A stretch of 25,045 nt of DNA from positions 59,850-84,894 of the forward strand of contig RQSC01000013.1 in assembly GCA_013416795.1 (NCBI GenBank), read 5' to 3'. The notes below the pieces were generated by a model. The model saw only the letters and a program-made list of their open reading frames with translations. It searched no databases and was not told where the DNA came from. Below are positions 2,415 through 22,238 of this stretch, piece after piece. How positions within the stretch are numbered: position 1 is the stretch's first letter; each line of letters begins with the position of its first letter. The translations under genes were made by a program, and so were the position numbers. This stretch comes from Prasinococcaceae sp. CCMP 1430. Its lineage: Eukaryota > Prasinodermophyta > Palmophyllophyceae > Prasinococcales > Prasinococcaceae.

Positions 2415-5400
2415 CTAGCTGGCTGCTGAAGTCGCGGCGTCCGTGGAGGGCTCGGCGCCTTTAGCGGCAACGGCGCCTTGCGCGAAGGGCCCATCGCCCT
2501 CGGTGTCGTTCGCCACGTCTGATTCGATTTGGTCCTGGCTGACGTAGCGACGCTGGGCGTCCGCCATCTTGGTCGGCGGCTGCGGCGGTCCGTAGTAGCA
2601 GTCGACGAGGAGCTGGCGTAGTTCTGAGACGAGCGGGTAGCGCGGGTTGGTCCCCGTGCATTGGTCATCGAACGCGCGCTCGGCCATCTCGTCGACCCTC
2701 GCGAGGAACGTCTCCTCATCCACGCCAGCGTCGCGGAGCGACCCAGGCACGCCGACGTCGGCCTTGAGCGCCTCGATGGCGCCGATCAGCGCGAAGACGA
2801 GGGCCTGCTCGTCGGTTGGCCCGTCCTCCGTCGCGAGGCCGAGCTGCGTGGCCAACTGCGCGTATCGGTGCGTGGCCACGGGGTGCGTGTACTGCGAGAA
2901 GACCGCCATCCGCGTCGGCGAATCGGTGGCGTTATAGTGAATGACGTGGCTAATCACCATGGCGCACGCTTGGCCGTGAGGAATGTGGAAGGCCGCGCCG
3001 AGCTGGTGTGCGAGGCTGTGCGCAATTCCCAAGAAGGCGTTCCCGAAGGCCATGCCGGCGATGGAAGCTGCCCGATGGCACGCGGCGCGGTGGGTGAAAT
3101 GGCCCGTGTGCACGCTCAGCGGCAGGTGCTCCATGATGCCCCGCGCGGCCTTGAGCGAGAGTGGCACCGTGAAGTCACTCGCGTACACCGACACGAGCGA
3201 CTCGAGCGCGTGCGTGAGAGCGTCCAAGCCAGTGTTGGCTGCGAGCCCGCGCGGGGCAGACAGGGCGAGCTGGGGATCGACCACGGCGCAATCGGGCAAC
3301 AGCTTGTAAGACGTGATCGGGTACTTGACGCCATCCTCGTCCGTAATCACGGCGAAGGGCGTCATCTCGGCGCCCGTCCCGCTCGTCGTTGGAATCAACA
3401 CGAGAGTCCGCACACGCGACCCCACCTTCGGGAAGGGGCACACGCGCTGGCGGATCTCGATGAAGCGCATGCTCATCTGGGCGATGGTGAGCTCGGGGTG
3501 CTCGTGCATGATGCGCATGATCTTGGCCGCGTCCAGGACCGAGCCGCCTCCGAGACCCACGACAACGTCCGGATTGAAGCGCTCCATCACGCGGACGCCC
3601 TCGCGTATCGTCGCGACGTCCGGATCGGGTGCGATGTCTGAGAAGATGGCCGTCTGCATTCCCATGTTCTTGAGCTGAGCAACGACGGGGTCGACCAGCC
3701 CTATGTCGCACATGATGGGGTCGGTGACGACCAGCACGCGGCTGTTCTTCCAGCCGAGCGGCGACGAGCTGGCGAGGTCCTTGAGCGCCTCACCGGTGCA
3801 GTGTCGGTTGAAATACACGGACGGCGGCACCTTGAACCATCTGCAAGAGGGAACGGGGAAAGGGGGGGAGGGGGGAACGGAGGGGAGGAGCGAGAAGCGG
3901 CGCAGCGCATGAGGTCAGCGCGGCTCGCAGCACACCCCTCTTCAGCGCGTGGCGGCAGCCATGACAGACAAGGCACGGGCGGCGTCGGGCGCGCGACGGC
4001 TCCTGGGAGCCACTCACTCGATGTGCTCGCGGCGCTCGGCGGTGTGCTTGTAGTTGAGCAAGGCAAGAGGGCCCATGTTCATCGAGCTGGTGGAGCCTGC
4101 GACGGTGCCGGTGCCAAGGGTGAGACTCGGCTCTAGTGCCATGTTGTACGGCCCACCGATGGCACCTAGCGAGCTGGGCGTGTTGACGAGGTTGTGCATG
4201 CACACGGACCCCAGCTGGAACTGGTCGATCCGCTCCTTGTTGTCCGGGTCCGTGTGAAGCGCGCACGTATGGCCAAGGCCGCCGTTCATCGCGAGCTCGC
4301 GCTGGATGCGCAGGGCATCATCGAAGTTGCCTGCCTTGTACAGGGCCATGATGGGGCAGAGCTTCTCGTAGCTAAAGGGTTCGGAAGGGCCAATCTCTTC
4401 TGCGTCGACTGCCAGGACCACGCACGTGTCGGGCGCGTAGATGTCCGCCATGGCTGCAATGTCCTTGGCGCTCTTGCCGACGACCTCGGTATTGAGCCTC
4501 CCGCCGGGGTAAAACGTGTCTGCGAGGCGCTTGCGCTCGGCGGGGTCGACGACGAAGTGCACGCCGCGTCTCTCGAAACGCTTGCGCACCTCTTCTGCGA
4601 CGCTCTGGACGACGACTGTGGCCTGCTCGGTTGCGCAGATCACGCCGTTGTCGAAGGTCTTGCCCGTCACGATGAGCGAACACGCGGCGTCGAGGTCTGC
4701 GGTCTCGTCGACGATGGCCGCGCAGTTGCCGGCGCCGACGCTCACGGCCGGCTTGCCGACCGCGAGCGCCGCCTTGACCATTTTGTTGCCACCCGTGGCG
4801 ATGATGAACTTGACGGCCTCTGCCCGCATGACGTAATCGCTCAGCGCGATGTCGCGCGGGTGCACGCACTGCACGCACCCCGGCGGCGCCCCCGCGGCCT
4901 CTGCCGCCGCCGCCAGCAGGCGCACCGCGTACCACGACACGCGGGCCGCGCGCGGGTGCGGCAGGAAGATGATGGTGTTGCGCGTCTTCATCGCGTTGAT
5001 GACGTCGAAGATGACGGTCGACGTCGGGTTGGTCACCGGCACGAGCGAGGCGATGGGTCCCACGGGGTACGCTGTCTTCGACACGCCGGTCGCCTCGCCG
5101 GCATCGATGATCCCCACGGTCTTCGTGTCCCTGTGCTTCGCGAGCACGTACTCCGCCGCGAAGTGGTTCTTGACGACCTTGTCCTCCATGAGCCCCATCT
5201 GCGTCTCGTCCACCGCGAGCCGCGCGAGCTCCACGCGGCGAGTGTTCGCCTCGGCAGCCACAGCGTGCGCGATGCTGTCGACCTCCTCCTGCCCGAGCTC
5301 CAGGAAGGCCTCCTGCGCAGCCGCGAGCGAGCGCATCGCCTCGTCTGCGGCGGGCTCATCGCCCACGGGGCACAGCGGCAGGTCTGCGACGCGGACGAAG

Positions 5401-5681
5401 CTCGTGCTCGACGAGCCGTACGTCTTTGCGCCCTCAGTGCTCAAGTGCGAGTCGCCGCCACCAGACGCGCCTGCGGCGTGCAGACGGCCGTTCCGCTCGG
5501 GCTCGGAGCTGTTGCTGCTCCCACCACCACCGGGCGCCTGCTCGGAGGCGGCGGCGAGCGCGCGGCGCGCGCGGCTTCGCCGCCTCCCCCTTGCCGCGTC
5601 GGCGGCGCGTCGCGCGCGCGTCGCGGGCGGTGTGGCGCCGCGGCGAGTCCTGTGGGACTCGGCCGCAGCGCAGCACACCAT
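2415..5681 (-). CDS. adhE: Bifunctional acetaldehyde/alcohol dehydrogenase AdhE
   Basis: Reduces acetyl-CoA through acetaldehyde to ethanol with NADH, the fermentation enzyme known from several green algae. Exon 1 (4018-5681) holds the CoA-acylating aldehyde dehydrogenase, with its catalytic cysteine in FDNGVICATEQ (residue about 349). Exon 2 (2415-3840) holds the iron-dependent alcohol dehydrogenase with GLGGGSVLDAAKI for NADH and metal ligands in GLDALTHALE and AHSLAHQLGAAFHIPHG. Splicing at CATCGA|GTGAGT ... CTTGCAG|ATGG restores REHIEWFKVPPSVYFNRH, the usual inter-domain linker. The chosen start is the ATG at 5681; the frame also runs to a GTG at 5720. The product is about 1029 residues, longer than bacterial AdhE (about 890) by an Arg/Ala-rich N-terminal extension of roughly 100 residues that may be a mitochondrial or plastid targeting peptide. 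All key residues are present. Confidence 0.93.
3841..4017 (-). other. Intron of adhE
   Basis: A 177-bp intron with a strong donor (GTGAGT) and acceptor (CTCTTGCAG), in phase 2. It sits between the aldehyde dehydrogenase and alcohol dehydrogenase domains. Its 3' half, read on the gene strand, has a C/T-rich tract before the acceptor. Confidence 0.9.
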
Positions 5682-6800
5682 GCCTTGGGTGCTGCCGACA
5701 ACGTGTTGCGTCCAATTCACCCATAGGGCGAAGCGGCGTTGAGCATGGTGCAGATATTTTTCGCGGCGAATTCACCATCCGCGCGAGGGACCCCTCCCCG
5801 CAGCGCAGCTCTTCGGTCGGTAGGGGCCACTCCTCGCAGGTGGTCGGACTGTCAAATGTGGCGGGTGATGATCAGCCGGTGATTCGGCAGTGAATCCCTC
5901 CACCGCCAACCCCAATCCAGGCCCGGATCACCGGCCGGCCGGCCCGCCCGGCGGGCGGGGGGGACTCTGCCTCTCCGCCTCTGCCGTTGCCGGTGCCGGT
6001 GCCGGCGCCGTGCGTGAGCGCGCGCGGCGCGAGTTCATCTCCGGGCTGCGCTGGGCGGGCGGAAGCGCGCCGCATCGCACCGGTTCCGGTTCCGGGTCTG
6101 GTGTCTGGTGTCGACATCATCGCCGCTGCTGGATGAGCGGGCGCCCTCCCCCTCTCTCCTGTCCATGCTGGGTTCGGTCGGATGGTACGGTGCGCGGCCG
6201 CGGGCGTTCGCTCGCTCTCGCCGTCTGTCTGTTGGCTCTTTCCCTTTCCGTGTGGGCTGCGTGCGTGCACGGCGGGGTGGGCTGTGCCGCGATGGGCTTT
6301 CGCATCGCCACCGCCGGCGCCGCCGCGGCGCTCGCGCGCGCGCGGGGCGCAGCTGTTGCAGCGCCCTCCGCGGGCGCGCCTCGAACGGGCGGCACCGGAG
6401 TGCGCGAGGGCGCACAGCGCCGCAGTGCGCCCCGGTGGGGGCAGGCGTGCGCTCGGCGCCGCGGCCTGCCTCCTCGTGCAAAGGGTGCGCTCTGTTTACG
6501 GCCCCGTGCCGCCTGCCCCCTCCCAACCCCAACCCAACCCCCGCGCAGCTCGGCTTGCGCTGCCGCGTGCGTGACCTCCGCCGCAGGGCAGCGAGCGCGC
6601 CGCTTTTTGCGCCGCGCGCTCTGTTTCGAAATGGGATTCGATGGGGGGGCCTAGGTCGCGCGCGGGCCTGCCCCGCGCGGCGGCTCGGTGCCCGGCGGCG
6701 CGCACGCGGACCTGCGTCGCGCGCACCTCGTGACGCCGCCGAGTGCATGCTGACGCCGCAGAGCAATGCCCCCGCTCCGCCTCGACTCGCGCGCGCGCAG
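5682..6800. other. Non-coding interval between divergent adhE and Ubc13
   Basis: About 1.1 kb separating the adhE start (-) from the first recognised Ubc13 exon (+). It should hold both promoters and Ubc13 exon 1. I see only GC-rich low-complexity sequence, such as the CCGGCCGG run near 5931-5945 and GCCGGTGCCGGTGCC near 5990. An AT-richer patch (AAAATATC on the adhE strand near 5756-5763) lies about 75 bp upstream of the adhE ATG and could be a core promoter. Open frames here have no recognisable protein character. Confidence 0.45.
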
Positions 6801-7727: not shown

Positions 7728-9111
7728 CTACTCGATGGTAAGCTCCGAGCGCAGCGAGGGGTTGCCGTACTGCACGCCCGTCCGCCAGCGGCGGTAGCGC
7801 ACGCCGAGCTTGTCGTAGGCCACGGGGTTGGACCACACGTCCATGCCGGCCTTCATGTTGCGCTGCTGGCCCTCCACGAGCACGAGGTCCTCGCCGAGCA
7901 CCTGGTTCGCGAGCTCCTTCCAAAACTCCGACACGAAGGGCAGGTTCTTGGCGAACTTGGCGAAGTCGAGGCTCATGCGGTAGAGCAGGCGCGTCTCGCC
8001 GTCCTTGGCGGGCAGGCACACGTGCAGCTGGTGCAAGTGGCGGTCGCAGTCCGAGGCCCTGGTTTCGGCCTCCACTTGGCCGGGCTTGACCAGCCCGATC
8101 TGCGAGAGCACCATGCACGGCGGCTGAAAGGTCATGTCGATGGGGTAGGGCTGCCACTCGCCGCCGAGGCCGCCGATCTGCTGCGCGACGGCGTTCTTCA
8201 CGGTCTTGAAGTCCACGCGATCGGGCACCGACCAGCCCTTGGCGAAGGTGCTCGTGTGCGTGAAAGGAGCGTGCGCGAGGTCGAGCAGGTTCTCCATCAG
8301 CAGCCCGTGCTCCACAGGCACGGTCAGCACGATCTCCGCGTGGATGGTGAACTCGTCGCCCGGCGGCGCCAGCGCGGTGAAGTTCTGGTGGTCCTCGGGC
8401 GGGTCCTTCTCGCCGGGGTACACCCAGATCATGCCGTCGCGCTCCACGACCGGGAGGGCCTCCACGCGGATGTTCTTCAGCTCGTTGGTGGACGGCGTCT
8501 TGGTGCACTTGCCGTCCGTTTGGAACTCCCAGCCGTGGTAGGGGCACTGCACCTTGCCGCCCACGTTCTTCCCGAGCGAGAGCGGGCACGCGCGGTGCGC
8601 GCACGAGTCGCGCACGCAGCCGGCGACCCCGTTCGCGTCGCGGAAGAGCACCCACGGCTCGCCGAAGAGCTCCAGCGGCACGAGGGTGTCGTCCGTCAGC
8701 GTCGAGGAGAAGTCCACCGGGTACCAGAACTCGCGCAGCGCCCCGCCAGTCTGGCGCGCCTCGAGCGGCTCGCGCGCCGGCCTCTGGTCGTCGAACCCCT
8801 CCCCCCCGTGCTGGTCTATCCTAACCCCACCGATGTCGCTGTCGCTGCTGCTGCTGTCGCTCGCGCCCCCCGCGGCGCGCTCCAGCGTGCTCGTGTCGCC
8901 GAGGGTCGTCGCGGCGCGCACCGCGCTCTCCATGTCGGCGAGGCGGCTCTGCGTCTGGCGCAGGCGCGCCTCTGAGAGGTGCACGCGCTCGTGCGCAGCG
9001 CGCAGCTCCTCGCGCAGATCGCTCAGCTCGCCGCGCACGTCGGCGACGGACTTGCCCTCGCGCGCCGTCGGGTTGAGCGTCTCCACCACGCTGCTGTGCA
9101 GCGCCGTCACG
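7728..9111 (-). CDS. CAO: Chlorophyllide a oxygenase (chlorophyll b synthesis), 5' partial
   Basis: Plastid Rieske monooxygenase that converts chlorophyllide a to chlorophyllide b in two oxidations. The exon encodes about 461 residues. Positions 1-65 carry the end of the plant A domain (SSVVETLNPTAREGKSVADV, then RAAHERVHLSEARL), the part that in land plants destabilises the protein when chlorophyll b accumulates. A Ser/Asp-rich linker follows. The Rieske [2Fe-2S] site is at about 168-195 (CAHRAC ... CPYHGWEF) and the mononuclear-iron site at about 273-290 (ENLLDLAHAPFTH, with TFAKGWSVP after it). The end matches CAO (NPVAYDKLGVRYRRWRTGV). The acceptor CGCGCAG|CGTGAC at 9112-9113 sets the exon start; the transit peptide and start of the A domain are missing, probably lost at the N at 9246. 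Both iron centres are in one frame. Confidence 0.93.
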
Positions 9112-9246
9112 CTGCGCGAGGCGCCCACGAAAGCGTCGCGATGGGGGGTATCCGCGCGGCAGCTGCCGTCAGCGCGCGCGCGGAGCGCACGGGGGCGCGG
9201 GGAGCGCAGGGGGGAGCGCAGGCGCCGCGAGCGCCGCGCGCACGCN
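9112..9246. other. Probable CAO intron 3' end running into an N
   Basis: GC-rich sequence without coding character upstream (on the minus strand) of the CAO exon, ending at a single N at 9246. The 5' exons of CAO are not found anywhere to the right before the next gene. Confidence 0.5.
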
Positions 9247-10525
9247 CCGACGCGCACTGACTGAGGCAGAGGCAGAGGCGCGAGTGCAGGGGGCGATGCT
9301 GATGAGGAATCCACGCCGTATTCCATGGAACCCTCAATATCAAAAGACGTTGGCGCAACAGACAGAGACAGGCAGCGAGGCAGGCGGGGAGGGAGGATGT
9401 GCTCGTGCTCGCGACTGGGCGGTGGTGTTTGTCGTTGTTTGTTCTGTCCGTCCGTGGCGCCCATCCGCGGCCTGTTTGTGCCATGATGGATGGGATGGAT
9501 GGCTGCGGCGGCGGCGCGCGTGGCGCACGCGGGTTCGCCACACGCGCCACCGCTCAAATCTAGCATCAGTCGGTCAGATGAGGTTGGATGGGTGGGTGGG
9601 TGGGTTGAGGGGTGACCGGCCGGTCGCGCGCGCACATCATCACGACATCCGTCTGTCTATCTATCTGTCTGGCAGTGGGCGAAGGGAGGGGGTATGGCAT
9701 GTTCGGCCACGACTCGTTGTTGGATCGCGCGCTCCCTTTGCGCTCGCGCCGCCCCTCACTCAGTCAGCCTTCGGTCGGTCGGCCCACCTCTCGCATTGCC
9801 CAGCCAGCCATCCACAGCGGGGCCCTCTGCCAGACCAGCCGCTGCCGGTCCGGCTCATCAGCGCCGCGATTTCGGCGGCACGCGGGCGCCGCGCCGCCGA
9901 AATCGCGGCGCTGATGAGCCGGACCGGCAGCGGCTGGTCTGGCAGAGGGCCCCGCTGTGGATGGCTGGCTGGGCAATGCGAGAGGTGGGCCGACCGACCG
10001 AAGGCTGACTGAGTGAGGGGCGGCGCGAGCGCAAAGGGAGCGCGCGATCCAACAACGAGTCGTGGCCGAACATGCCATACCCCCTCCCTTCGCCCACTGC
10101 CAGACAGATAGATAGACAGACGGATGTCGTGATGATGTGCGCGCGCGACCGGCCGGTCACCCCTCAACCCACCCACCCACCCATCCAACCTCATCTGACC
10201 GACTGATGCTAGATTTGAGCGGTGGCGCGTGTGGCGAACCCGCGTGCGCCACGCGCGCCGCCGCCGCAGCCATCCATCCCATCCATCATGGCACAAACAG
10301 GCCGCGGATGGGCGCCACGGACGGACAGAACAAACAACGACAAACACCACCGCCCAGTCGCGAGCACGAGCACATCCTCCCTCCCCGCCTGCCTCGCTGC
10401 CTGTCTCTGTCTGTTGCGCCAACGTCTTTTGATATTGAGGGTTCCATGGAATACGGCGTGGATTCCTCATCAGCATCGCCCCCTGCACTCGCGCCTCTGC
10501 CTCTGCCTCAGTCAGTGCGCGTCGG
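9247..10525. repeat. Perfect 633-bp inverted repeat (arms 9247-9879 and 9893-10525)
   Basis: The two arms appear to be exact reverse complements around a 13-nt spacer at 9880-9892; position x pairs with 19772-x. The left arm stops exactly at the N at 9246. The right arm ends at 10525 and is followed by 149 bp of unpaired sequence up to the next N at 10675. Within each arm are short simple repeats: a GGGTGGGTGGGTGGG run at 9592-9606 with its complement near 10166-10180, and a CTATCTATCTGTCT run near 9656. Open frames in the arms are mirror copies of one another and look like nothing known. It may be a real palindrome or an amplification/assembly chimera. Confidence 0.9.
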
Positions 10526-10675: not shown

Positions 10676-11801
10676 CGTTGGTCAGGAAGCCACGCTCGTC
10701 CAGTGTGCCCGCGAGCGCGACTAAACGGCCGCGCTGGACGAAGTACATGCTATTGCCGCGAGCACCCTGGTGCACGATGACGTCATTCGGTGGGTGCACC
10801 TGTGGGCGCAACAGCGACGAGATGGCGACCAGCCATGCCTCGCCATTGACGGGGTCCGCAGCCACCTCGGTGAAGAGGCTGACATTTTCGAGGGCCCCGC
10901 GCAATGTCTCAGAAGCGTGCGCCCACACGCCCTTCATGAGCGTCTGTGGCAAGCTGCTCAGCAGCTGCCGCTCACCGTGCACGTCCGACATGGCGTTGCG
11001 CCTGAACGCGTAAAATTCGTTGATGCGCATGCGCAGGTCGCGTGTCGCGCTGTAGTGTGTGAGCAGCTCCTGCACATTATCCAGGTGTCGTTCTCGCCAA
11101 ACAGAGGCGATGTTGTTGTTGGCGATCATGTCGCACACCTGTAGCACGAAGTAGAAGTACGCTAGGCTGCCGAACAGCATCGTGCCAGCGCAATATGCCT
11201 GCTCCACCCCCGTGGTCGCGCTGATATTGCCGTAGCCCGTGGTGGACATGGTCATGACGCTCCAATAGAGCGCAGTGATGTACTGCGTGGTGCGTGAGGC
11301 CTCGCACAGTGGCTCACCGCGCGCGAATTGGGTCGACACCCACGAGCCGTCGCACAGCCCATCCTGCTCGCCGATGTACCAGAATACACACGCATTGATG
11401 TGCGCCGCCACCAGCATCAGCGCGGCAAAACGAACGATCAGGCGAAAGCTCGAGCGCGCGCTTAGCCACCAGCCGCTCGCAATGTCGCCGAGGTGGTCTG
11501 AGGACGACATGCTCACGCGAACTATCCGCAGCAGGCGGATGAGCTTAGCCTCCGCAAAGCCCTCGGCGTCACTGACAGCGGGATTCATGGCCTGTAAAGT
11601 GTCGAAAGGGAAGGCAATCAGCACGTCCATGAAGAGCCATGTGCGCGTATACATCCGCGCGACATGCGCAGGATCGAGGTCGACCTCGCCATCGGCGTCA
11701 ATGACACCCGTGGCGAAATTGAAGGGCACCTCGAGAACAAAAATCACGTCGATCAACACATAGAGTGCCAGCTCTGCTGGGGTCGGCGAGTGCGCGCCCA
11801 T
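10676..11801 (-). CDS. Voltage-gated K+ channel with cyclic nucleotide-binding domain, partial at both ends
   Basis: Six-transmembrane channel of the EAG/HCN/plant Shaker-like superfamily, in a membrane not identified. Seen in order: S2 (LALYVLIDVIFVLEVPFNF), S3 (TWLFMDVLIAFPFDTL), an S4 with few charges (KLIRLLRIVRV), S5 (FAALMLVAAHINACVFWYIG), a pore loop with the selectivity sequence TTGYGN (K+ type), S6 (SLAYFYFVLQVCDMIANNN), C-linker, and the first half of a cyclic nucleotide-binding domain (DVIVHQGARGNSMYFVQRG). The domain stops at RGFLTN, right at the N at 10675, so the rest is lost. S1 is absent: the left-hand limit is either the ATG at 11801 or an acceptor near 11777 (CCCCAG|CAGAGC), with earlier exons not found. 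About 375 residues are visible; intact relatives are much longer. Confidence 0.85.
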
Positions 11802-15414: not shown

Positions 15415-15550
15415 GGCGCCCGCCAGCGCGTCGCGCAGCGTCTGGCCGACGCCGCCGAGCGGCGCGTGCCCCTCTCCTTGCGAGGGCTGCGGGATGCTGA
15501 CGATGCGCCCGCTCCGCCCGTCTGCGCCCGCGCATGCACCACCCTCGCAG

Positions 15551-16696
15551 GGCACCTTGCTGCGCGGCGTGACCAAAAAGGAAAGGCCTTTTTCCGCTTC
15601 GAAACCGGCTTGACCGAGCCCGTGACGCGATTCGCCGTGCACGCGCTCGACATTGACGCCTTGGCTTCGCACACATTAGCGCACTACAAAGAATGCAAAG
15701 ACGGGTGGTCGTACACGTGCGAGGTGCGACAGCGAATGTGCGAATTCGTGCACCGCAATCGACTGCCCCTGGGACTGACGTGCACATGCAAACGGGCACG
15801 CCCCCGTGCCACGACCCCCAACCCTCCGGCCCGCGCGGTCGCCCGCACTCTCGTTCGCAGGATCGCGTCGAGGATTTCCACTCGTTCTCGCTGGGCAGCG
15901 GCGATGCCACCACGCACCTAACGGCACTCGCGTGCGCCGACAAGACCGTGCGCGTGTTGCGCCGCGATGACGAAGCGCAGCGTGACGCCGGGCGTGCGGA
16001 GAGCATCAGCGTGGGCATGCCTGTGAGTGCCATACAGTCGTACGTCGCCGACGCCCAGGCTGTGCGGGAGAAAGGGCACGCCGCGGATGGCGGTGGTGCG
16101 GCAGCGGGTGACAACGACGGGGGCACGTTATCCTCCGAAGCGGCGAGCGCCGCTATTGATGTCTTCTTGACAACCTCCGCAGCGAGCCGTCAGCTGCTCT
16201 ACGGCACCGAAGGTGGGACCATCGGGCAGCTGATGGTCGGCTCTCGCACGACCGAGCGTGGTTGGACACTCCCGAGTGCGGCCGGCGTGCCCATCGACAT
16301 GTGCACAGGCTACGACCTCACAGCAGATGGTGTGCCAGACATCGTAGTCGGTAGGGACAACGGCGCGGTTGAGGTGTATGGGTTCGAGCTGGGCGCGGAA
16401 CCTACACTCATGCTACAGAAGAGCGTCGGTGAGGGCGTCACCGCGGTTGATGCGGGGACGTGCACGGCGTCATCGTCCATGGACGCCGTGATCTCCACCT
16501 ATTCTGGAAAGATCGTCGCCTTCGCGCCCGTCGGCGCGGCCGACGACTCCGCCGCTGACTTTGAAGACACCGTTGCCAACACACACAACGCAGCACGCCG
16601 CCTGAGCCTTTTCCGCAAATCCTCGCGGTTGGCAGACGGCGCGAGTGGCGGTGGCGCCGACGGTGGCAGTGCTCCCGAGGCCGACGCTGCGAGCAC
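15551..16696 (+). CDS. BBS7: BBSome subunit BBS7, partial and frameshifted
   Basis: BBS7 is a beta-propeller subunit of the BBSome, the coat complex that moves membrane proteins out of cilia. Exons 15551-15723 and 15861-16696 splice at TGCGAG|GTGCGA ... GTTCGCAG|GATCGC. Propeller matches include KGKAFFRFETGLTEPV, HYKECKDGWSYTCE, GYDLTADGVPDIVVGRDNGA and ISTYSGKIVAF. Two faults stand out. LRGVTKK and GKAFFRF are in different frames, so one base is missing near 15578-15581. And the first 100 residues or so and everything after the propeller (more than half of a roughly 700-residue family) are absent; the latter stops at the N at 16697. Upstream of 15551 the DNA is the antisense of the SMP-C2 gene. 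Assembly damage is the simplest explanation; a pseudogene is the alternative. Confidence 0.8.
15724..15860 (+). other. Intron of BBS7
   Basis: 137-bp GT-AG intron in phase 0, ending TCGTTCGCAG. Removing it joins WSYTCE to DRVEDFHSF, in line with the family. Confidence 0.78.
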
Positions 16697-16775
16697 NACC
16701 CACCCGCACTCTCCCGCCCGGCGCGTCTCCGCCCGACCCCGCTGACGCCAGCGCGCGCCATCCGCGCGCGCGCAG
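16697..16775. other. N and probable intron 3' end
   Basis: A single N, then GC-rich sequence ending in the acceptor CGCGCGCGCAG at 16775. BBS7 stops on the left side and the nucleotidase lacks its N-terminus on the right, so the N most likely hides a gap containing the ends of two genes. Confidence 0.6.
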
Positions 16776-19180
16776 GACGCCGACGATCCGCGCTCGGTCC
16801 TGACCGCCGCGGACGTCGCCGCGCAGAAGGCAATCGTGTCGGCGCTCGCATCGGCGTATCCTGCGCTCCGCATCGTCGGCGAGGAGGACGAGGACGAGGA
16901 GGGCGTCGCGCCCGTGGAGGACACGCTGCGACGCGACCTGATTAATGCAGGCGCGGCCGACGCCGCGGACGACGACCTCGTGCCGCTCTCCGAGCTCACG
17001 GTGTTCGTCGACCCGGTGGACGGCACGCGCGAGTTTGTCGAGGGGCGGCTGGGCGCTGTGCAGACGCTCGTGGGCCTCTCGCGCCGCGGACGCGCCGTCG
17101 GCGGCGCCGTCGGCCTGCCGTTCCCGCACGGAGGCCGCGCGGCGCCGTGCGTCGTGTGGGGCGTGGTCGGGGGCGCGGGCGTCGGCGGGGTGGGCGAGGC
17201 AGCGTCGGGCACGCTCGGCGAGTTCGCGCCGGAGGGGCGCGTGGACGCGGGCTCGGCTTCCGGCCTGGTGTCCGTGACGGGGGACTCGTCCAACGCGCTG
17301 TTGGCAGCCGCGCGCGAGCTGGTGGCCGCCGACACCAATGCGATCTTCGGCGGCGCGGGCAACAAGTTGCTCCAGCTCGCGCACGGCCGCGCCGACGTTG
17401 CGCTCATGCACTTCGGCACCTCGCTGTGGGATACGTGCGCGCCCGAGGCGGTGCTCGCGGCGCGCGGTGGGCGCGTGACGGACCTCTTCGGCGCGCCGCT
17501 CGTTCACGACGCCGACTCGCCCGCGGGGCTCATCAACAGGCTGGGCGTGCTCGCTACCGCGCCGGCCGTTGCGCACATGCACGACGAGCTCTGCGCGCGC
17601 ATGCGCGCGGACGCCAGGCTGCTCGCGCTCCTCGAAGACATGGGGAGCGCGACCGAGGGGCCCGCGGGCGCCCAGGCGGTGGATGTGTCCCGTTGCCTGT
17701 CGGGCGCGCCACTTTCTCGCGCGTGGATCGAGGAGGCGATGTGCCCGCCCGCGGCCGGCGAGGCGGAGCCCGCGCACCGGCTGGCGTCGTACTCGGCTCC
17801 GGAGGCCGACGCCGTGCGAGGCCTCATGTCCGAGGCGTGCCGCCTGGAGCTCGAGTGGGCGGTCAACCCGGACGCCAAGCCTGGCGCGGCATCCGTTCCG
17901 CCACCGCCGGCGTCTGCGTTCTACAAGCGCATCGCCATGTCCGAGCTGGAGCACGCGCGCCTCAAGGCGCGCACGGCGCCGCTCAAGCTGGCGCGCGACA
18001 CGCGCTCGTACGCCGTGGAGGCGACGTTCCTTGGGTCGGCGGCGTGCGAGGCGCTGGTGAACGCGGGCGTGCCCGTCGCGCGCGCGTACGCGGTCGACCT
18101 GCGGCCGTGCGCGGCGGACCCGCTCGAGAGCAGGTTCGGCCTCCTCCTGGAGGAGTTCCGGCGCGAGGACGGCTGGAGCCAGCACTGGCTGTGCAACGCC
18201 GCGCAGGCACGCGCGGCTCTCGCGGGGCTCGCCAAGCTGCACGCGTTCTTCTGGGAGGGCTCCAAATTCTGGGCCGAGGCTGAGGGCGGCGGCGAGGGCG
18301 CCGCCGCGTGCGAGGAGCTCACCGCGGCGGTGTGGCCCTCTGGAGCGTACTGGCAGCCCTCCATGCAGCCAGCCGAACAGCTGACCGAGCTCGTCGCCAA
18401 GCACTGGCCCGAGCACGCGCGCAACTTCGCCGAGGCCTTCGCGCAGTCCCCCATGCTCGAGGGGGTCGACGTGGGCACGCTAGGCGCCAGGCTACAAGCT
18501 GTGGCCCCGCAGGTTGGCGCGGAGAGCCACCCCTTCGGTAGCACGGGCAAGGGCGCGCCGGGGATGAAGACGCTCATACACGGCGACCCGAAGGTAGCGC
18601 GCGCCGCTTGGCGCGCGCGCGCGCGCGCGCGCGCCATCCTGCGCCCTTGTGGCGGTGCCCTCTCCCGTGTGCTGACATCTGCTCTTCGCCCCACCAGGCC
18701 GCGAACATCTTCCTCCGCGAGACGGCGACTGGCGAGGTGCAGGTGGGCCTGATCGACCTGCAGTGGTGTGGCTTTGGCCTGGCAGCCACTGATGTGGCGC
18801 ATCACATCGTGGCCGGCACCGCCACCGACTGCCTGTCCGTCGATGGCTCGACCGAGTCCGCGCTGCTCGACCACTACCACGCAGAGCTCATGGCCGCTCT
18901 GGTTTCCCTTGGCGGCTTCTCGCCCGAGCGCGCCGCGAAGCTCCTGCCGCGTGACGTGCTTGAGGAGCAATACGAGAACGCGGTGCTGGACATGGCGCGC
19001 GTGGTCTTCGCTTATCAGTGGGCGCGCGTCAAGGCGTCGCCGGCCACGCTGGCGAAGAACGCGCCCTCCATGGGGCGCAACTCCTACAACAAGAGCGTGG
19101 AGCACGCGTGCTGGCTCGTGGGCACCACTGACAGGGTGCTGAAGAGGAGGGAGGCGCGCGGAGCCGGGCAGGCTGCGTGA
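16776..19180 (+). CDS. 3'(2'),5'-bisphosphate nucleotidase fused to a CHK/EcKinase-like kinase, 5' partial
   Basis: Exons 16776-18593 and 18698-19180 (AAG|GTAGCG ... CCCACCAG|GCC) give 766 residues. Residues 1-290 are an inositol monophosphatase-fold enzyme closest to BPNT1/Hal2, which removes the 3'-phosphate from PAP in sulfur assimilation: RIVGEEDEDEE (metal-binding acidic loop, about 34), FVDPVDGTREF (about 77), FGGAGNKLLQL and LWDTCAPEAVL. From about 380 a second domain resembles the small-molecule kinases of the aminoglycoside/choline/ecdysteroid kinase-like group, with the catalytic HGDPK then AANIF (about 601-611) and the metal-binding LIDLQWCGFGLAATDVAHH (about 622). Both catalytic sets look complete. 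The junction lies inside one long exon, so the fusion is not an artefact of exon joining. The substrate of the kinase part is unknown. The first 50 residues or so are missing to the left. Confidence 0.85.
18594..18697 (+). other. Intron inside the kinase catalytic motif
   Basis: 104-bp GT-AG intron in phase 0 that splits HGDPK from AANIF. It contains a (GC)n run at about 18616-18634 that can pair with upstream GCGCGC. Confidence 0.85.
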
Positions 19181-19257: not shown

Positions 19258-19914
19258 TTAGTTGGTCTCCATGGGCGTGACTGGCGTCACGCTGCCATCG
19301 GTCGCCGGCGCGCGGCGTTTCTCCGCCGCAGGAGTCTTCGGCGCCGTCTTCTCCGCGATCGCCGCGAGGGACAGCTTGGTGTACTCGTTGGGATGGTTGA
19401 TGGCCACCTCGGATGCGTCGTGCAGCGCCTCGAACGTGCAGCTGCACGCCAGCTGGTAGTGATGACCCTTGGCGAATGCGCGCGCCTCCTTCTGCGCTGC
19501 CGGCGCGAGGCCCATGCCGTTGAGCGCAGCCGCCAGGCTGTCGTCCTCGAACGCGCGATACGGGCAGCCGCCGTTCCCGATGATCTTCATGCAGCTGTAG
19601 GGCGTGTAGTCGGTGCGCTTGCCCTCCTTTCCGTAGTTGTGGCGCACGTTGTACGCGTACTCCTTGTCGAACCTCTCGGCGGGCATCCCCTTTGTGAACT
19701 CGCCGCGCCAGAACGCGAGCGCGTCGTCGAGGCTCAGACCAAGCCCCTTGAGGTACAGGCCGAGCTGCATGCGGCCGGCGTGCTTCAGGTGGTGCTTCGC
19801 CTTGAGCTCGTCGTACAGCGTGCGCATGCAGAGCGGCATCGACTGCGCGGCCACCTGCGGCAGGTCGGCGAGGCTGACCGCGCCCTCGCGCGCCGTCCAC
19901 GACAGCGACTCCAT
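19258..19914 (-). CDS. PRIM2: DNA primase large subunit, C-terminal [4Fe-4S] domain
   Basis: Regulatory half of eukaryotic primase (p58), which with the small subunit and Pol alpha makes RNA-DNA primers. The segment encodes 218 residues from an ATG at 19914. All four cluster cysteines are present in family context: SMPLCM, YTPYSCMKII, GNGGCPYRAF and YQLACSC. Other matches are HHLKHAGRMQLGLYLKGLGL, FDKEYAYNVRHNYGKEGKRTDYTP and INHPNEY. The start of homology (SLADLPQ) is about 13 residues after this ATG, just where the interdomain linker of the intact protein lies. The N-terminal domain is encoded 467 bp upstream on the same strand and ends in a stop. This is either exon 2 of one gene or a separate gene; see the finding. 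The frame runs open upstream through a perfect hairpin. Confidence 0.88.
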   Translation of the reverse strand: MESLSWTAREGAVSLADLPQVAAQSMPLCMRTLYDELKAKHHLKHAGRMQLGLYLKGLGLSLDDALAFWRGEFTKGMPAERFDKEYAYNVRHNYGKEGKRTDYTPYSCMKIIGNGGCPYRAFEDDSLAAALNGMGLAPAAQKEARAFAKGHHYQLACSCTFEALHDASEVAINHPNEYTKLSLAAIAEKTAPKTPAAEKRRAPATDGSVTPVTPMETN

Positions 19915-19927
19915 CGCGACCGCCGCC

Positions 19928-19979
19928 CCACAGCGCACGCGGCCGCGCGCGCTGCCGCGCGCGGCCGCGTGCGCTGTGG
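19928..19979. repeat. Perfect 24-bp hairpin just upstream of the primase C-terminal part
   Basis: Arms 19928-19951 and 19956-19979 are exact reverse complements around the loop CTGC, nearly all GC with two NotI-like GCGGCCGC cores. The stem lies 14 bp before the ATG of the C-terminal primase segment, so it is in either an intron 3' end or a 5' UTR. Confidence 0.92.
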
Positions 19980-20034
19980 CGGCGACTCGGGAGACGGGAC
20001 GCCCGGAGCTTGCGTTATCCACACGTACGATCGT

Positions 20035-20222
20035 GCAAGCGTCCCTACGCACACGCGCGTGCACACGCACGCACATACACATACACACAAGCGTCCCCTC
20101 ACACACACACGCGCGCGCGCGCGCACACACACACACAGACACGCAAGCACACACACGCACGCACACACATACACACACGCACACACGCACACACACGCAC
20201 ACACGTGCACACACGCGCGCCC
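20035..20222. repeat. Long CA/CG/TG alternating purine-pyrimidine tract
   Basis: About 180 bp built almost wholly of CA and CG steps (ACACACAC, GCGCGCGC, CACACGCACA). It lies between the two primase parts. Such sequence can adopt Z-DNA and is slippage-prone. Translations of it are artefacts. Confidence 0.9.
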
Positions 20223-20381
20223 GCCCGCGCCGAGCCCATGCGCGTTCCCCGAGGCGCGCTCGTTGACCGGCGCTCGGCCGGCCCGCGCGGGGGAGCGCGC
20301 GCGCCCGCGCGCCCGCCGGTAGTTAAGGTTTGGTTTTAGGGTATACATATATGTACACGTTTGGGAAGAGGGTCTGTGTAC

Positions 20382-21080
20382 TCAATAGCGTCGCGCCAGC
20401 GCCTCGACGAGCGGGCCGAGCCGCTCGGCCTCGCCCGGCGCGACCACGCTGGCCCACTGGCGCGCGGTCTGCACGAGCGCCTTGGACAGGCGCGCGCGGA
20501 ACTGGCCCACCACGAGCGCGGCGAGCTGGTCGCGCGGCACGTACGCGTGGCCGCGGCGCACGAGCACCGCGCGCCGCATGACGAGCTCGGGCACCTGCTC
20601 GAAGGGCACGCTGTAGTAGTCGGACGCGCGCGCGGCGGACGTCTCCGCGCGGGCGTCCAACGACTTGGCGACGCCGGCCAGCGCGTCGCGCACCTCGGCG
20701 AATTCGGCGGCGCCCAGCGGCGCGTACGGCAGGCCGTTGGCGCCCAGGAAGCGCACCTGTTCCTGCGCGGGCAGCATTTTGAAGCGCGCGCGGAAGAGCA
20801 CGCACTCCTGCTGGATCAGCCAGCGTCGGAGCTCCTCGGTGCGGCAGTACGTGAGGCGCGCCACGAAGTGGCTCACCACGTCCTTGCGCGCGGTCGCCTC
20901 GGCGTTGCCGGCGACGCGCAGGTGCTTGGCGACGAGCGTGCGGCAGAGCTCGTCGACCTCGGCGCCCTTCTTGCCACGCGCGCGCGCGTCCTCGAGGCCG
21001 CGCAGCACGCGCAGGCGATCGAGGGCGAAGCGCTCGAACTCCTCGAGTGCGACGTCCCCCTGGGGCGGCGCGTCATACAT
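20382..21080 (-). CDS. PRIM2: DNA primase large subunit, N-terminal domain
   Basis: Helical N-terminal half of p58, which contacts the catalytic small subunit. It runs from an ATG at 21080 (MYDAPPQGDVALEEFERFAL) to a TGA at 20382, 232 residues. Family landmarks are VVSHFVARLTYCRTEELRRW and IQQECVLFRARFKML, then DYYSVPFEQVPEL, AYVPRDQLAALVV and FRARLSKALVQTAR. The last residues (LVEALARRY) align with the end of this domain in animal PRIM2 (ending HLSHSY). About 25 residues seen at the N-terminus of animal PRIM2 are not visible; the ATG is preceded by GCCACCTGAG, which could be a splice acceptor, so an upstream exon may exist. There is no usable donor before the stop: the only nearby GT follows it directly (TATTGA|GTACAC). 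Confidence 0.85.
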   Translation of the reverse strand: MYDAPPQGDVALEEFERFALDRLRVLRGLEDARARGKKGAEVDELCRTLVAKHLRVAGNAEATARKDVVSHFVARLTYCRTEELRRWLIQQECVLFRARFKMLPAQEQVRFLGANGLPYAPLGAAEFAEVRDALAGVAKSLDARAETSAARASDYYSVPFEQVPELVMRRAVLVRRGHAYVPRDQLAALVVGQFRARLSKALVQTARQWASVVAPGEAERLGPLVEALARRY

Positions 21081-21203
21081 GCTCAGGTGGCCGCCCGCCG
21101 CGCCGCCGGGCGTCGCCGCGCCCGCGCCCGTGCGCGGCGGTACGGTCCGGACTGGCGCGCGCGGGGCCCGGGAGGGAGCGCGCGCGCGCGCGACGCGACG
21201 CGG

Positions 21204-21229
21204 TCTCTCTCTCTCTCTCTCTCTCTCTC
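21204..21229. repeat. (TC)13 microsatellite
   Basis: Uninterrupted dinucleotide run; reads (GA)n on the primase strand, about 125 bp upstream of its ATG, so it lies in the 5' UTR or promoter. Confidence 0.95.
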
Positions 21230-21787
21230 GCACGCGCCGCCGCGCCTCGGCGCCCCGCGCGTCCCTGGCGCGCCCTGTGGCTCCCGCGCCCTGTGGCTTG
21301 GCGCCTTGCGGCTCCCCCTCCCCATCTCGCTCCTCTGCCCTCTGCGCCGCTGCGCGCTCGAATTCGCTCCGCGCGGCGTTTCCCGCCCCGGCGGCCGCGG
21401 CCGCACGCGCGCTGCGAAAAAGAAAAATTCGAGTTCGAGTTCCGAGTTTGCGCCCAACCCACCCATCTTTTGACCAAAACGACAAACCAACCAACTCGCG
21501 CTCGGGCGAAACGGCGAAGCGCGCGGCCAACGAGCGCGGCGCAAAGTCGCGCGCGCGCGCGTGCGCTTTCGAATCCCCCCCCTCGCTCTCTCTCTCTCGC
21601 GCCTGTCGGTCGGGTCGAGGGCCGTGAGCCCGCGCGCGCCGGCGAGGTCGGTCGGGCCCGCCGGCCGAACCCGAACCCCAAACCGACCCCGTCCGACGGG
21701 CTTGCACCTCTTCATCGCAGCCGGCATGCGCGCCGCGAATGGAGCAAGCGCCGCGCCTGCTGCGCTCGCGCGCCTCGCGCCTCGCGC

Positions 21788-21790
<3 letters not shown>

Positions 21791-21821
<31 letters not shown>
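21791..21821. repeat. Poly-C run of 31
   Basis: A homopolymer of 31 C (G on the minus strand), flanked by CGCAGT and GTTGCGG. The length should be treated as approximate because such runs are hard to sequence. Confidence 0.9.
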
Positions 21822-21822
<1 letters not shown>

Positions 21823-22238
21823 TTGCGGAAGCGCACTGGCTGGAGACGCCAGCCGACGGCCGCAGCGGCAGGGACGGCAGCTGAGGCGGCTGCTCTCTCT
21901 CGCAGCAGCTGCGGCGGCGGCACTGCATCGGCGCGGCGGGGCCAACCCCTGCCTGCCCCCGCCGATTGCACACAAAATTGGTAAGATTTACTGTACACAC
22001 GGCTCGGTGTCTTGGCATTGCATTGCGCGATTGAGTCTCGTAACCACCGGGCGTGGCGCGGCGCTTGCCCGTGATGAGGCGTCCCTGTACCATCAGATGG
22101 TACGTATGTAGATTGCATGTGAGTGTATGCGCACGCGTGCTCGCCCCGCGGCCCCGCGTCGGCCTGCGGCCTGACGGCGGGCGATGCGAGGAGGCCAGCG
22201 TGCGCCTGTCTGAAGAAGAGGTGTGGGTGGCAGCGACC

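Follow-up and report, generated by a model that had tools for sequence, protein, structure and literature searches.

The window, a stretch of 25,045 nucleotides from Prasinococcaceae sp. CCMP 1430, carries on its + strand a gene whose predicted product joins a BPNT1-type phosphatase to a kinase of the EcKL/APH superfamily. This fusion is probably real, and the reading that we consider probable is one bifunctional protein in which two independent active sites are tethered. The reading frame is free of in-frame stops across 16746-18593 and joins a second exon through a phase-0 GT..AG intron at 18594-18697, ending at a TGA at 19178-19180. Splicing out this 104-nt intron links HGDPK to AANIF with the phase kept, and Pfam finds both domains in the resulting protein, well beyond what chance would give, as the original prediction had proposed for a single chain. 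The prediction that the junction would lie inside one exon of 1.8 kb was also borne out, since the phosphatase/kinase boundary falls within the exon at 16776-18593, which measures 1,818 bases.

At the 5' end, a single N at 16697, which marks an assembly join, precedes the gene by 78 bases. The segment at 16698-16775 corresponds to the 3' part of an intron: its codon score is non-coding, it ends with CAG, and a branch-like CTGAC motif lies 34 nt upstream of the acceptor, from which the exon is open at 16776. In both introns CTGAC sits 26-34 nt ahead of the acceptor, a feature found at a background of about 2% of the CAGs in the window. The gene is 5'-incomplete, since the earlier exon or exons were lost at the join, and the assembly lacks about 35-50 residues of the N-terminus, equivalent to Inositol_P positions 1-35.

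A profile search of both halves, suggested along with the original prediction, was carried out by Pfam hmmscan on the spliced product of both exons. It returned Inositol_P at 96.8 bits (residues 13-256), EcKL (PF02958) at 32.8 bits against a cut-off of 22 (residues 547-688), and APH (PF01636) at 24.4 bits against a cut-off of 23.2 (residues 433-660). The last two scores agree with the small-molecule kinase class that had been assigned to the C-terminal half.

The phosphatase domain, without its first 35-50 residues, occupies 16776-17639 and was delimited by Pfam, phmmer, alignments and AF2/Foldseek. BPNT1 was the top PDB match by phmmer (1jp4 and 2wef, E ~1e-32, 116 bits), and CysQ, SuhB and INPP1 scored only about 28 bits or less. 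All the D..EE..DPxDGT..WD metal ligands of the Inositol_P fold are present, in the motifs TAAD (D 16812), GEED (E 16881 and 16884), DPVDGT (D 17010 and 17019) and WDTCAPE (D 17430), and they are invariant when aligned with bacterial CysQ-type proteins. The AF2 model of this half (pLDDT 71, pTM 0.74) retrieved human and rat BPNT1 as the best Foldseek matches (E ~1e-16), with 2wef at the top (E 1.3e-16). Neither the HAL2 equivalog cut-off (NCBIfam TIGR01330, 22.9 vs 267 bits) nor the CysQ one (TIGR01331, 63.2 vs 228.8 bits) was reached. By sequence, this half is thus nearest to BPNT1 and not to IMPase, INPP1, HAL2 or CysQ. Of the complete BPNT1-type core in the original prediction, the metal-ligand motifs and the sequence similarity are supported; the N-terminal helix region is missing at the join.

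The linker at 17640-17711 has about 24-25 residues, MGSATEGPAGAQAVDVSRCLSGAP, and holds an in-frame ATG at 17640. It is followed by the N-lobe and the start of the C-lobe of the kinase (17712-18593), supported by Pfam, phmmer and a collinear motif alignment. The rest of the C-lobe lies in the last exon (18698-19180), where Pfam and the alignment agree. The candidate ATP lysine is encoded at 17925, the alpha-C Glu at 18018 and the HGD with the catalytic Asp at 18585, whereas the Mg-binding Asn (18704) and the metal Asp of the ID motif (18755) come from the last exon. Both the HGDxxxxN and the (I/V)D metal motifs of EcKL are present, as LIHGDPKAANIF and LIDLQW. Several of the bacterial EcKL proteins fetched for comparison from a search of 299 genomes matched the kinase half by phmmer, with E-values as low as 3e-8, the database being small. 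In the alignment, K, E, HGD, N and ID are collinear with those proteins, and a G-x-YW block is held in common.

This half is labelled divergent because its identity to the bacterial relatives is about 20-25%, its glycine loop is not preserved (LMSEACR-like vs GYGEIVR-type, with insertions), and the 33 bits obtained with an HMM of one bacterial subfamily come nearly all from the C-lobe, the N-lobe giving 3.4 bits. The Lys and Glu of the N-lobe are aligned, and it is the collinear motif alignment that supports this lobe. For the first kinase exon, AF2 gave a poor model (pLDDT 47), which was not used as evidence and retrieved no significant match in a fold search. The C-terminal half is best described as a divergent EcKL/APH-superfamily kinase, likely active as judged from its motifs. 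The kinase core that had been called complete keeps its HGD...N...ID motifs and its EcKL score, but its glycine loop and N-lobe are degenerate.

The reality of the fusion has to be judged against the quality of the assembly. In the window, single Ns occur at 9246, 10675 and 16697. The 1,235 bp at 15462-16696, which end at the N, are 100% identical to C107:203946-205180, where the BBS7 gene carries on beyond the copied segment. This stretch is a misplaced BBS7 segment, foreign to the fusion locus, and an upstream BBS7-BPNT1 fusion was ruled out on this basis. Likewise, the 1,125 bp at 10676-11800, which start after the N, are identical to C43:161903-163027, and an apparent ion-channel ORF on the - strand remains open past the proven chimeric join at 11800. 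Directly after the N at 9246, the bases 9247-10525 form a perfect inverted repeat of 636 nt around a 7-nt centre, likely a hairpin read artefact. At four further Ns in other loci one flank, and one only, is a perfect copy (from C109, C128, C37 and C78), and one N on C60 and one on C23 showed no copied flank. Wherever an outside copy exists, the join is one-sided in six of six cases and both-sided in none of the six, with the source present in the assembly. A single N in this assembly is thus usually the sign of a contig end to which foreign sequence was added on one flank. The copied pieces are up to 1.1-1.3 kb long, and many contig ends are chimeric.

Three other features of the window lie on the - strand. 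At 2415-5771, parts of an aldehyde dehydrogenase and of an iron alcohol dehydrogenase stand together in AdhE order; 7731-9245 encodes a Rieske protein whose C-terminus is of the pheophorbide a oxygenase type, fitting a photosynthetic host; and the DNA primase large subunit is split between two ORFs at 19258-22238.

Because similar N-flanked copies occur elsewhere in the assembly, the fusion was tested as a possible chimera, in which 16698 to ~17650 would come from another BPNT1 gene and have been wrongly placed next to a standalone EcKL kinase gene. We regard this as quite unlikely. Single Ns do mark bad joins here, and the phosphatase half spans about 0.95 kb from the N, within the reach of the copied stretches; nevertheless, the copied flank at 16697 is the left one, DNA and protein searches found no second copy of the right flank or of the fusion DNA in the genome, and none of the six surveyed joins was copied on both sides. 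The missing source copy does not count fully against a chimera, because a second BPNT1-like fragment in the host genome also lacks one: at ~3108-3720 of locus L032 (C23:11500-19500), it follows an N, has no other copy in the assembly and runs into a gene that is BSD-domain-like by eye. That fragment is shortened, being cut mid-domain, whereas in the fusion each domain runs undamaged to the linker, and a chimera would need two complete domains on the same strand, in frame and within about 25 codons of linker. An open frame is weak evidence at 70% GC, as the ion-channel ORF that stays open across a proven join illustrates, and the codon score in the linker region is near or slightly below zero, with dips to between -0.15 and 0.13 at 17658-17753. 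However, frame 0 is the best of the three throughout the linker, there is no stop and GC3 holds at ~0.88, while at the control join at 11800 the codon score drops below zero and GC3 is down to 0.53-0.57. A second dip (-0.02) occurs inside the kinase, in a Pro/Ala-rich stretch at 17850-17921.

Two other explanations accept the fusion frame and differ on the kinase. The kinase could also, or mainly, be a separate product, arising either by initiation at the ATG at 17640, whose context is GACATGG, or through an internal promoter. That ATG coincides with the domain boundary, and the relatives of both halves stand alone as proteins, but no stop codon ahead of the kinase frees the phosphatase, so the phosphatase half would remain fused; we consider this very unlikely. 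It is also improbable that the kinase half has only weak catalytic activity, or serves as a pseudokinase in the regulation or localisation of the phosphatase. The degenerate loop in place of the GYGEIVR type, the insertions and the low N-lobe score would suit such a role, whereas the C-lobe catalytic residues HGD, N and ID and the Lys/Glu pair are all kept.

Regarding the domain pair elsewhere, 299 bacterial genomes of one phylum were searched once with the phosphatase-kinase exon and once with the EcKL family. The exon was matched in 114 of the 299; the matches listed covered the phosphatase part, and most of their frames were 250-430 residues long. Apart from the window's own, none of the fetched loci contained both halves. 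In the host genome, Inositol_P and EcKL otherwise occur at different loci, and the open frames of four other EcKL-like loci lacked an Inositol_P partner. No relatives turned up when viral contigs were scanned with the exon or with alignment A1, and prokaryote contigs yielded nothing beyond four weak phosphatase loci. We discarded alignment A2, which combined 27 rows, since it had forced the kinase rows onto the phosphatase. The original prediction knew of no described enzyme with this pairing, and our literature search likewise found no report of a PAP phosphatase paired with an EcKL kinase. The novelty of the pairing rests on this absence from the literature, and the bacterial comparison covers the 299 genomes of one phylum. 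A fish gene of bacterial origin that carries an EcKL domain, with its function unassigned, has been reported (PMC4687049).

Concerning the function of the bifunctional protein, translation as one chain and activity of each half are inferred. The N-terminal half would be a Mg-dependent 3'(2'),5'-bisphosphate nucleotidase, expected to split PAP into AMP and phosphate; it is probably lithium-sensitive. BPNT1 clears the PAP left behind by sulfotransferases. The C-terminal half would transfer the ATP gamma-phosphate to a hydroxyl group on a small metabolite; choline and ethanolamine, named in the original prediction, would be no more than candidates. Phosphorylation of small alcohols is the activity known for EcKL kinases, with ecdysteroids as the substrates in insects; to our knowledge, their substrates outside insects are essentially unknown. 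The two independent active sites may have been joined for co-expression or co-localisation. Substrate channelling seems less likely, because the products of PAP hydrolysis are, as far as we know, not EcKL substrates. The two-step conversion, or the link between PAP turnover and phosphorylation, that the original prediction put forward would be a further possibility. A more specific proposal is an algal-lineage bifunctional enzyme that couples PAP clearance to the phosphorylation of small alcohols, for example where sulfation and phosphorylation are paired on the same metabolite class; this is conceivable and we rate it as rather unlikely. If the fusion is real, it is a domain pair for which we found no description, and it hints at what the largely orphan EcKL family might do in vivo. 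The link to PAP would then suggest looking for EcKL substrates among sulfated and phosphorylated metabolites. Moreover, the misplaced copies flanked by Ns imply that fused genes in this assembly need checking.

Compared with known systems, animal-type BPNT1 (1jp4, 2wef) is the best match in sequence and fold, with GGAGNK, WDTCAPE and the metal-ligand motifs conserved. However, BPNT1 is a standalone protein of ~308 residues, whereas here a kinase follows and the assembly does not contain the N-terminus. The SAL1/HAL2 PAP phosphatases of plants and fungi are expected to catalyse the identical reaction, but the HAL2 score, far below its cut-off, places the fusion phosphatase in another subfamily. 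The kinase shares with EcKL (PF02958) and APH (PF01636) proteins scores above the curated cut-offs, the HGD..N..ID motifs and collinearity with bacterial EcKL proteins of ~330-400 residues, and it differs from them in its divergence, its degenerate glycine loop and its attachment to a phosphatase. A protein of the host genome, at locus L014, was recognised by eye as resembling the ACAD10/11 type. Proteins of this type show that an APH/EcKL-like kinase can be fused to another metabolic enzyme; in them the partner is an acyl-CoA dehydrogenase and the kinase is N-terminal, whereas in the fusion described here the partner is a phosphatase and the kinase comes after it.
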